This document shows, one piece after another, positions 47,341 to 50,485 of a stretch of DNA of 53,395 bases. Below the pieces are notes generated by a model. It saw only the letters and a program-made list of their open reading frames with translations, had not been told where the DNA came from and did no database searches. Position numbers and translations under genes: made by a program. Source of the stretch: Treponema sp. (GTDB lineage Bacteria > Spirochaetota > Spirochaetia > Treponematales > Treponemataceae); NCBI GenBank assembly GCA_017549025.1, contig JAFYWB010000070.1, positions 1 through 53,395 on the forward strand, read 5' to 3'. Each line of letters opens with the position of its first letter. The stretch's first letter is position 1.

Positions 47341-48522
47341 ATGAAGTTGTCTTTTGGCCGGGTTGTAGTATTTTTTCTCACCAGTTTTTTCTGTTCCTGT
47401 CTGTGGTGTCAGCCAGCGGAATTTTATGGACAGAACTACATGCAGGGTGGAGGAGAGCAGGAGCTTTTGCCAGTTTCTGCTGACGGAGCTTCAGCTTCCC
47501 TTCCTCCCTTGTTGGCTGGTTTATGGCAAAACAACCAACGGATTGTTTCCTTTGAAAATCTTGATTCTGCCAGCGTCATCTTAAAATTGTTCTACGGCTG
47601 GTATTACGACCGTGCTGCAGAGCCTGGAGCTAAAACTTTGGTGGACTCCACCATGAGCACCACCCAAATGGACTTTAATTACAGTGGTGAGTCTCAGCTA
47701 GATTTTACAGAACGAAATAGCGTCACCATTACAGAAGAAGTTCTTCAATATGATTCTCTTCCTCCCCGTCCCAAAAACGATGCCACCGCTCCCCAAGCCC
47801 AGCAGCTTGTGGTGGAATTTGAACCGCTGATTCCCGAAACAGAAACAAGTGGTGCTTGGAATATCTGGATTACCTACCCAGATGTTAAAGAACGTCACGC
47901 CATTCCTGTGGCAGTTTTTGACGGAAAGCTGTACGTAAACTTCTATCTTGGAACAAGCGACACCCTGTCCCGATTTTTCCAAGCAGCCTCCAACACCAAT
48001 GGAATCACCATAAGCACTCCTTTGCTAGATAAAGAGGTAACTTCTTATCTTGTAACAGGTTCACGCATGTACAAGATTCGCTATTGGCAAACAGATATGG
48101 AATATGACGGAGAAACCCAGGCCATACTTTCTGGCGAGGATGGACGTCATCAGGTACCTAAGCATCTGTTGATTGGTGGCACCGTCTATACCTGTGTTGC
48201 CGGAAGACGGGTGGATATTCGCAATGTGGAAGAAATTCCCCTTGATATTTCTGGCTTTACCATGAGCAGCGATAATCGAATTGTGGTGGAAAAATCTGCC
48301 TACCTTTCTTTAATGGATAACAAGGCTTCTGAGCTGTACCAGCTTATTGACGAGGCCAACAGTCGTAAGGCTCCACCACCACCGCCACCAATTCCCTTAG
48401 GTGACCTTGATTTTCACTATGCTGAAATTGAAGATTTACGAAAATATATGATTCCCCAGCCTGAATTTCCAGAATTTGAAGATTGGGATTACATCAAGAC
48501 TGCAACGAGCCAGAGCTTTTAG
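47341..48522 (+). CDS. Exported protein of unknown function
   Basis: 393 residues. A Sec-type N-terminus (KLSFGRVVVFFLTSFFCSC) is followed by WCQPAEF, where cleavage is likely; the cysteines do not form a clean lipobox. The mature part has many beta-prone stretches (MDFNYSGESQLDFTERN, IWITYPDVKERH, GTSDTLSRFFQAA) and a Pro run (PPPPPPIP) near residue 360. I do not recognise a family. The start at 47341 is chosen over the GTG at 47284 because of the signal peptide. The 3' end overlaps the convergent vanZ gene by 29 bp. Confidence 0.65.
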   Translation: MKLSFGRVVVFFLTSFFCSCLWCQPAEFYGQNYMQGGGEQELLPVSADGASASLPPLLAGLWQNNQRIVSFENLDSASVILKLFYGWYYDRAAEPGAKTLVDSTMSTTQMDFNYSGESQLDFTERNSVTITEEVLQYDSLPPRPKNDATAPQAQQLVVEFEPLIPETETSGAWNIWITYPDVKERHAIPVAVFDGKLYVNFYLGTSDTLSRFFQAASNTNGITISTPLLDKEVTSYLVTGSRMYKIRYWQTDMEYDGETQAILSGEDGRHQVPKHLLIGGTVYTCVAGRRVDIRNVEEIPLDISGFTMSSDNRIVVEKSAYLSLMDNKASELYQLIDEANSRKAPPPPPPIPLGDLDFHYAEIEDLRKYMIPQPEFPEFEDWDYIKTATSQSF

Positions 48523-48892
48523 TACCAATTTTTTTCAGAATCAAGGCTCCCACAAAACCCCCGATTCCTCCTAAAAATCCGCCTGCCACATCAGCAAGCC
48601 AATCCAAGGCTGAAGCGTACCGTCCTGGCACAAAGTACTGGTGGATTTCGTCCACTAAGCCATAGGCTGCTACAATGAGGGTAACGTACAGAATCTGTTT
48701 AAAGGGCTTTTGGAGCCAGTCCTCTTTTTTAAACCACCAGGTCCAGAAAAAGCCCAAGCCAGCAAAGCAAACTAAGTGGATAAGCTTGTCGGACACGGAG
48801 GGCAGGGTGACTGTTTCCAATGTACCAGAGGAAAGATACCAGCTGATTCCCATGGTAACAAGGGCTGGAAGCTTAAGAATTATCTTTTTCAT
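48494..48892 (-). CDS. VanZ-like membrane protein
   Basis: 132 residues with four membrane helices. SVSDKLIHLVCFAGLGF and DEIHQYFVPGRYASALDWLADVAGG are the VanZ signature. Members are linked to envelope glycan genes and glycopeptide tolerance; the reaction is unknown. It begins 20 nt inside the end of the WecA-like gene, so both share one transcript. Confidence 0.88.
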   Translation of the reverse strand: MKKIILKLPALVTMGISWYLSSGTLETVTLPSVSDKLIHLVCFAGLGFFWTWWFKKEDWLQKPFKQILYVTLIVAAYGLVDEIHQYFVPGRYASALDWLADVAGGFLGGIGGFVGALILKKIGTKSSGSLQS

Positions 48893-49946
48893 TGGTTGGT
48901 GAAATTTCTACTTTTTCCGAAAGAATGCTTCGTTGTTTCCGTAAAACGGCACGATGAGTATAGTGAATCACCACAAAAAAAGCAGTTACCACACAGAGGG
49001 CTCCTAGAAGGATAAAAAATCCCTTGATAGAGCCACACCACAATCCAATGATTGTAAAGGAACAAAGTCCAAACTGCAATAACAGAAGGATGGCTAACAG
49101 CCCCTTTGTGCTATATCCCATGTTCATCAGCTTGTGATGGAGATGGGCCTTGTCTGGTGAAAAGAATGAACGTCCTTCTCTCTTACGTCTCCAAATAGCT
49201 GCAATGGTGTCTAAAATTGGGATAGAAGCCAAAATGGAAGCCACCAAAATTCTGTTATAATCAAAAGATTTATTGAAGGGGAAAAGGGGAATGGCTGCAA
49301 CCATAAATCCTAGGAATTGGCTTCCACCATCACCCATGAAAATCTTTGCCTTAGGTTTGTTGTACAGCAAAAAACCTATAACCGCTACTGCTAGGATAAA
49401 GCAAATACCTGCAATATCCATACGATTGGCCACAAAATAGAGAAATCCTAAGGTAAGGAGTACCAATGTAGAAATGCTTCCACACAATGCATCAACACCA
49501 TCAATGAGATTGAAGGCATTGATGACACCGATTGTCCAGAAAAAGGTGATGGGATAGCTGAAGATTCCAAACTGCAGGGGCCCAAGCTGTGTAAAGCGAT
49601 TCCCAGAGAAAATCATGATGAAGGCAGCAACCATCTGGACGAAGAATTTTAATTTCGCTGGTAAATCAAAAAAGTCATCGATAATTCCAAAAAGGAAGAT
49701 AATAAGCCCTGCGATAATGATGGGAAGAAAATGTGTTAGGGAAAAATTTACTTCTTTGTGAAGATAGAGACAGGTTGCAATAACAAAGGCGGTAATAAAA
49801 CCAACTCCACCAAGACGGGGAATTGAACCGGTATGGACCTTTCGTTCATTTGTCTTGTCATACCATCCTTTTTTCTTGCAGAGAAATATTATTAAAGGAA
49901 TGAGTATTGCAGATAATAAAAATGATAAAATAATATATATAAACAA
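48873..49946 (-). CDS. WecA/TagO-like undecaprenyl-phosphate sugar-phosphate transferase
   Basis: 357 residues from TTG, about ten membrane helices. GIIDDFFDLP, NAFNLIDGVDALCG, IFMGDGGSQFLG and the HLHHKLMNMG loop are signatures of the MraY/WecA family, which loads the first sugar phosphate on the lipid carrier for a surface glycan. It is more like WecA/TagO than MraY by the HLHH loop. No ribosome-binding site other than a G10 run precedes the TTG. An ATG at 49965 sits at leaderless distance from a -10 but is out of frame with ten Gs; nine Gs would fuse it in frame (MGGGINLF). Confidence 0.88.
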   Translation of the reverse strand: MFIYIILSFLLSAILIPLIIFLCKKKGWYDKTNERKVHTGSIPRLGGVGFITAFVIATCLYLHKEVNFSLTHFLPIIIAGLIIFLFGIIDDFFDLPAKLKFFVQMVAAFIMIFSGNRFTQLGPLQFGIFSYPITFFWTIGVINAFNLIDGVDALCGSISTLVLLTLGFLYFVANRMDIAGICFILAVAVIGFLLYNKPKAKIFMGDGGSQFLGFMVAAIPLFPFNKSFDYNRILVASILASIPILDTIAAIWRRKREGRSFFSPDKAHLHHKLMNMGYSTKGLLAILLLLQFGLCSFTIIGLWCGSIKGFFILLGALCVVTAFFVVIHYTHRAVLRKQRSILSEKVEISPTNEKDNS

Positions 49947-49953
49947 ATTAATG

Positions 49954-49963
49954 CCCCCCCCCC
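49954..49963 (-). repeat. Homopolymeric G10 tract before the WecA-like gene
   Basis: Ten C on the plus strand, so ten G on the coding strand, between the ATG at 49965 and the TTG at 49946. Poly-G runs of this length change by slippage and drive phase variation of Treponema surface genes. It is by far the longest homopolymer of G/C in the window. Confidence 0.85.
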
Positions 49964-49970
49964 ATATATT

Positions 49971-49999
49971 AGTTTAGGGCGTTATAAAAAATCCTAACT
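49971..49999 (-). promoter_or_regulatory. Candidate promoter of the WecA-like gene
   Basis: Minus strand: AGTTAG, a 17-bp spacer and TAAACT, ending five nt before the ATG that begins the G-tract. It has the same AGTTA-17-TAAACT make-up as the symporter promoter at 9.19 kb. Confidence 0.45.
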
Positions 50000-50057: not shown

Positions 50058-50101
50058 TTCTCTCATATAGTATAACGTACATAGTATTTTTTTTCAACTT
50101 A

Positions 50102-50116: not shown

Positions 50117-50485
50117 ATGTATGAATCTGGTGAAAATTATTTAGAAGCAATCTTAATTCTGGAACAGGAGAATGTTATTGTCCGTTCCATAGATGTGGCT
50201 CATAAATTGTCTGTGTCTAAGCCCAGCGTCAGTAGGGCCATGGGACTTTTGCGTCAGGATGGATATATCGAAATGGCTGACAATGGCCCCATCTTTCTTA
50301 CTGAGAAGGGAAGGGAGCTGGCGGTGAAAATTTATCATCGCCATTGTATTCTGACTGAATTCTTAGAAAAAGTGTCAAAGGTTCCTCATCAACAGGCTGA
50401 AGAAAATGCCTGTCGCATAGAGCATATTCTTGACGAGGATGTATTCCAAGGAATTCAGAAATTCATGAAGGAAAATTTATCATAG
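50117..50485 (+). CDS. DtxR/MntR-family metal-dependent regulator
   Basis: 122 residues: winged helix (SIDVAHKLSVSKPSVSRAMGLLRQDGYI, LTEKGRELA) and a dimerisation domain, without the SH3-like third domain, so MntR-sized. Metal ligands by alignment: E10, H74 or H76, and C99-x-x-E102-H103. The Cys resembles DtxR/IdeR (Cys-x-x-Glu-His) rather than MntR (Glu-x-x-Glu-His), and the MntR Asp8 position is Asn7, so iron or zinc may be sensed rather than manganese. It is followed after 11 nt by argH. It probably binds the inverted repeat upstream. Confidence 0.85.
   Translation: MYESGENYLEAILILEQENVIVRSIDVAHKLSVSKPSVSRAMGLLRQDGYIEMADNGPIFLTEKGRELAVKIYHRHCILTEFLEKVSKVPHQQAEENACRIEHILDEDVFQGIQKFMKENLS

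Follow-up and report, generated by a model that had tools for sequence, protein, structure and literature searches.

The window, meaning the whole 53,395-nucleotide stretch of Treponema sp. DNA that was analysed, contains on its minus strand a putative polyprenyl-phosphate N-acetylhexosamine-1-phosphate transferase gene and a vanZ-family gene, with a metal-dependent repressor gene on the opposite strand (Table 1). The transferase matches PF00953 far above the family cut-off (E 4e-39, 134.6 bits against 27), and the TIGR02380 (ECA_wecA) profile aligns with residues 4-334 of the protein as started at the TTG (E 3e-52) with a score of 177.7 that falls below the curated cut-off of 326. On the basis of these two profiles the gene is a WecA/TagO-like putative transferase: the near-full-length TIGR02380 match is a likeness to that family, whereas the score under the cut-off and the lack of a Wza-type exporter (PF02563) in the genus are differences from it. 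A WecA/TagO-like gene with vanZ downstream had already been proposed in a sequence-only reading of the window, and PF00953, TIGR02380 and PF04892 bear this out. The vanZ gene also adjoins the transferase gene in the related genomes G001, G003, G006, G007 and G009, and the order of divergent DtxR-type repressor, tagO and vanZ is common to G001, G003, G006 and G007. Elsewhere in the genome there is one further weak transferase match (31% identity), presumably MraY. Wzz- and Wza-looking ORFs, judged by eye, lie upstream of tagO in some termite-gut relatives; the capsule-export locus that they suggested was rejected, as none of the 10 genomes of the genus has PF02563.

Table 1. Features of the wecA/tagO-like locus, with positions in the window.
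Feature	Position	Strand	Remarks
VanZ-family membrane protein	48494..48892	minus	PF04892 (E 6.6e-13), NF037970; overlaps the end of the transferase gene
WecA/TagO-like polyprenyl-phosphate N-acetylhexosamine-1-phosphate transferase (putative), 357 aa	48873..49946	minus	PF00953
TTG start codon (predicted)	49944..49946	minus	7 nt past the tract; aligned with ATG starts in G007, G001 and G008
ATG and tract reading frame	49951..49965	minus	MGGGH, TAA at 49950-49948 with 10 Gs; Shine-Dalgarno (SD) sequence absent upstream
G10 homopolymer	49954..49963	minus	SD position of the wecA/tagO-like gene
Candidate sigma-70 promoter TTGAAA-17-TATACT	50069..50097	minus	About 105 nt upstream of the tract, directed towards the transferase gene; 10/12 matches
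DtxR/MntR-type metal-dependent repressor gene	50117..50485	plus	Divergent; PF01325 and PF02742

The minus-strand sequence around the homopolymer is TAATATATGGGGGGGGGGCATTAATTTGTTTATA. As the sequence-only reading had noted, there are ten Gs (49963-49954), the first of which also completes an ATG at 49965-49963; elsewhere in the window G runs reach 7 and C runs 5. The tract is contig-internal and its position is conserved across independent assemblies, which rules out a sequencing artefact. When the tract length is varied in silico, the ATG frame with 10 Gs consists of five codons (MGGGH) and stops 1 nt ahead of the TTG, with 9 Gs it joins the transferase frame to give 363 aa (MGGGINLFIYI...), and with 12 Gs it is again in the transferase frame (364 aa); 11 Gs produce a 24-aa ATG frame and 8 Gs one of 23-24 aa. 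The frame arithmetic on which a phase switch had been proposed, with a stop at 10 Gs and read-through at 9 or 12, is therefore right. Upstream of the TTG at 49946, the transferase frame is closed by a TAA at a distance of 30 nt. The ATG frame thus depends on tract length; initiation at the TTG, for which the tract would serve as SD, does not have to. An ATG that adjoins a tract of this kind is not rare, because AT directly precedes 18 of 100 tracts collected from five genomes.

It had also been claimed that the TTG lacks a proper ribosome-binding site, and that the ATG is the real start with ten Gs as the OFF state. The first claim is wrong: the ten Gs pair with the anti-SD sequence at -10.7 to -13.6 kcal/mol, varying with the anti-SD length used, which is about as good as an AGGAGG reference (-12.3 kcal/mol with the longer anti-SD), and the spacing from tract to TTG is 7 nt. 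The 20 nt upstream of the ATG pair at +1.9 kcal/mol, i.e. without an SD; the TTG therefore has a good ribosome-binding site and the ATG none. The aligned place of the tract is occupied by the SD sequences GGGAG in G001 and G008 and GGGGAG in L072, all of which are tract-free at the start and have ATG or GTG where the window has TTG; the tract thus takes the ancestral SD position. The TIGR02380 alignment, which begins at residue 4 when the protein is started at the TTG, also favors that start. Among the 100 tracts, the SD-position class has 9 matches against 10% for random positions in what is a loose test, and with the class count unenriched the argument for the tract as SD uses individual clear cases only.

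The promoter evidence tells against the ATG as well. The hexamers of TTGAAA-17-TATACT are retained as a promoter-like pair in G006, G003 and G007, making four species with that of the window, and a conserved promoter at this distance, some 105 nt ahead of the tract, points to an mRNA with a leader. The -10 element (TAAACT) that had been placed just ahead of the ATG is present as sequence, but it is unconserved in the relatives and was not picked by the promoter scan, which found no -35/-10 hexamer pair around the window's tract. A leaderless mRNA started at the tract-joined ATG, which would be ON with 9 or 12 Gs and OFF with 10 or 11 and would make the sequenced population mostly OFF, is thus unlikely, although not negligibly so. 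The frames fit it exactly, and one relative (G003, discussed below) has the same layout of ATG and G10 in frame, with no ATG, GTG or TTG at the usual start. In addition, the codons from tract to start differ only synonymously between the window's genome (ATT AAT TTG) and G003 (ATC AAC CTG), over few sites. Against it stand the ATG without SD, the unconserved -10, the conserved promoter upstream, the frequency of AT before tracts, and the position of the TTG, with its strong SD, at the ancestral start.

Three related species (G006, G007 and G003) have a G10 at the same spot, and with one assembly sampled per species all three read exactly 10. In G006 (83% identical protein) the arrangement is TT-G10-TATTAAT-TTG, and an upstream ATG is in frame with 10 Gs. 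In G007 (72%) it is G10-TATTAA-ATG, with a TAA in frame directly before the post-tract ATG; a frame switch is therefore excluded for that copy, and the SD reading alone works. In G003 (72%) it is AT-G10-TATATCAAC-CTG, and because 10 Gs put the tract-joined ATG in frame and a CTG replaces the TTG, this copy has the most credible tract-dependent frame and would be the most promising case of a genuine frame switch. More distant copies differ in where the tract lies. The G001 gene (57%) starts without a tract and has a G12 upstream, in the 17-bp spacer of a TTGACA/TACAAT promoter (L151, G001:C1, near 1176543, in a complete genome; TTGACA-17-TACAAT has the optimal spacer length). Candidatus Treponema faecavium (55%) has GGAGGGGGGGGG-TAATTACATA-ATG, and G118 has a G10 at -62. 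The G009 contig ends exactly at the tract, and its upstream flank was not found when looked for via the DtxR gene. A G run of at least 7 within 200 nt upstream was found for 7 of 43 distinct orthologs, among which we infer, by position and lineage, at least four separate tract origins.

Tracts of this kind are not confined to the locus. The whole genome contains 19 G runs of at least 9, and the exact lengths 7, 8, 9, 10, 11 and 12 occur 14, 3, 3, 12, 3 and 1 times, a distribution that does not simply decay but peaks a second time at 10; the window's G10 is accordingly a slip-prone homopolymer above chance, as is expected of a contingency locus. G runs of at least 9 are present in all ten genomes of the genus and in most genomes family-wide. 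The 100 tracts from five genomes include 26 of length 9, 45 of 10, 15 of 11, 8 of 12 and 6 of 13-15, and 10 is the modal length across the genus. In many genomes of the family, G runs of at least 9 outnumber runs of exactly 7 (44 vs 4 in G022, 47 vs 2 in G093), which suggests, from run lengths, poly-G contingency loci family-wide. Several contigs terminate at a poly-G or no more than about 120 bases away from one (L038:24-33, L050:1, and C7 and C10 of the window's own genome), possibly owing to length mixtures or to sequencing difficulty.

Many of the tracts in the window's own genome are located at signal peptides or in promoter spacers. Those just after a start or signal peptide belong to outer-membrane-type genes, a lipoprotein-like glycoside hydrolase family 98 gene and a BNR-repeat gene, and others lie within an MBOAT acyltransferase gene and ahead of a solute-binding/GGDEF gene. 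For this last gene the poly-G (L032:3957-3968) is the apparent sole SD, as it is for two G006 genes with similar N-termini (L163:1589 and 4554). The family 98 gene has an in-frame G10 near its N-terminus (L043:942-951); host blood-group glycans are known targets of that family. Three outer-membrane-type paralogs, two of which are 51% and 32% identical to the third, have a poly-G right behind the signal peptide (L034 and L035:10353-10362, L043:10957-10967), two with 10 Gs in frame and one (L043:10957-10967) with 11 out of frame. Strict frame gating was found for 25 of the 100 tracts, compared to 12.6% of G4-6 runs at the same loci (p = 0.0012), and 10 of the 25 are ON and 15 OFF; the excess over G4-6 runs is a further point in favor of a start at the tract-joined ATG. 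Given the genome-wide peak at G10 and the paralogs in different states, the tracts form a system, and their lengths and placement are those of a contingency-locus pattern. Slippage-prone control by poly-G, i.e. phase variation in general, is likely in view of the genome-wide tract set, the frame states and the retention of the tract in relatives. What stands of the phase switch first proposed is a real, position-conserved tract within a genome-wide contingency-type set, but not a strict ON/OFF switch at the ATG in the window's species.

Similar tracts are known in Treponema pallidum, where they are found at tprF/I/E/J, tprL and tp0126 and most of those tested vary in length (PMC7864442). The likeness extends to related spirochaetes having G runs of roughly 8-11 that precede putative outer-membrane genes or lie within them, and to some tracts a few nt ahead of a start codon: poly-G lies at -7 in tp0381, where it varies widely, and in tp0986, where it varies little, and at -1 in tp0617 (PMC7864442). 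In tprL the poly-G covers part of the -10, the transcription start site is 4 nt downstream, and the reporter signal is higher with 8 Gs than with 10 (PMC7864442). A transcriptional switch of the tpr type, with the tract in or beside the promoter and its length altering transcription, has this precedent, as well as the G12 between TTGACA and TACAAT upstream of the orthologous G001 gene and the recurrence of tracts within TTGACA-TATAAT promoter spacers (7 of 100, vs 48 of 7524 control runs). It is nevertheless decidedly unlikely here. The tpr tracts affect transcription from beside the -10, whereas the window's tract occupies the SD of a glycan-initiation enzyme gene, at a distance of 7 nt to the start codon and of about 105 nt to the likely promoter; judged from that predicted promoter, it does not lie in or beside a promoter just upstream of the transcription start site. 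The same difference separates it from the porA-type poly-G of Neisseria meningitidis, a promoter-spacer tract (PMC7864442) that the G001 copy resembles. Slippage in an intragenic G tract switches the frame of pilus genes in the gut commensal Bifidobacterium breve (PMC9187656), and the signal-peptide tracts of the window's genome look to be of that type, as poly-G switches of surface features; the window's own tract coincides with the SD and start codon and does not lie deep in a long coding region. A 5'-UTR poly-G that alters translation has been reported in espR of Mycobacterium tuberculosis (PMC11898584). A literature search on phase variation in rumen Treponema, covering its sources in part, yielded work on a mycoplasma, judged from title and abstract, and no treponeme report, which is not proof of novelty.

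The reading we favor, at a probability of roughly 0.5, is that expression from the TTG is kept on by a ribosome-binding site made of hypermutable poly-G and that slippage tunes the start. A slippage-prone G10 would have grown out of the SD sequence of the wecA/tagO-vanZ operon; ribosomes would take the tract as SD and initiate at the TTG, so that the gene is probably on at most lengths. Replication slippage would then alter the tract length and with it the reading of the start region: at 9 or 12 Gs the upstream ATG would come into frame and add MGGGIN or MGGGGIN to the protein, at 10 Gs it would give the five-codon frame, which ends 1 nt short of the TTG, and 11 Gs would open a 24-codon competing frame. 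The outcome would be tuning, not strict ON/OFF, and a clean switch at this gene is not established, as the run also forms a strong ribosome-binding site. We infer slippage in the organism, use of the TTG, modulation of expression and an effect on the glycan from sequence.

The calculated SD energy is nearly flat from 8 to 13 Gs, so the tract as SD alone would be no switch; any length effect must then come via the ATG frame or some other effect, and tuning is to be expected over strict ON/OFF. The same result weighs against the favored reading, since under a pure SD role slippage hardly changes anything and a mutable tract length is left unexplained; G003, with CTG at the TTG position and the tract-joined ATG in frame, likewise favors a frame role there. 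The flat energy also fits an absence of regulation, in which the tract is a tolerated SD expansion, or RNA polymerase slippage masks its length, and expression is length-independent. The exact length of 10 in the window's and the three related copies is compatible with this, though 10 is the mode of the genus too. Such an account is very unlikely, given the genome-wide second peak at 10, the concentration of tracts at surface-type genes in mixed states, and their repeated appearance ahead of the wecA/tagO-like gene, at different positions and in four lineages or more. A more ambitious form of the favored reading, in which a single tract serves as SD and slippage site and makes the initiating step of a surface glycan phase-variable at the level of translation, in a graded or a dual (SD and frame) manner, with poly-G control of the gene having independent origins in several treponeme lineages and at different positions, is put forward tentatively and may well not hold.

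Phase variation in treponemes is known chiefly from the syphilis spirochaete. Tracts of about ten Gs are widespread in animal-gut treponemes, at genes for surface proteins, a putative acyltransferase, a glycosidase, GGDEF proteins and the enzyme that begins a lipid-linked glycan. Should the tract at this last gene vary, one slippage event could change the whole glycan and not one sugar, and the location of the tract at the SD poses the question of a homopolymer acting as ribosome-binding site and switch simultaneously.
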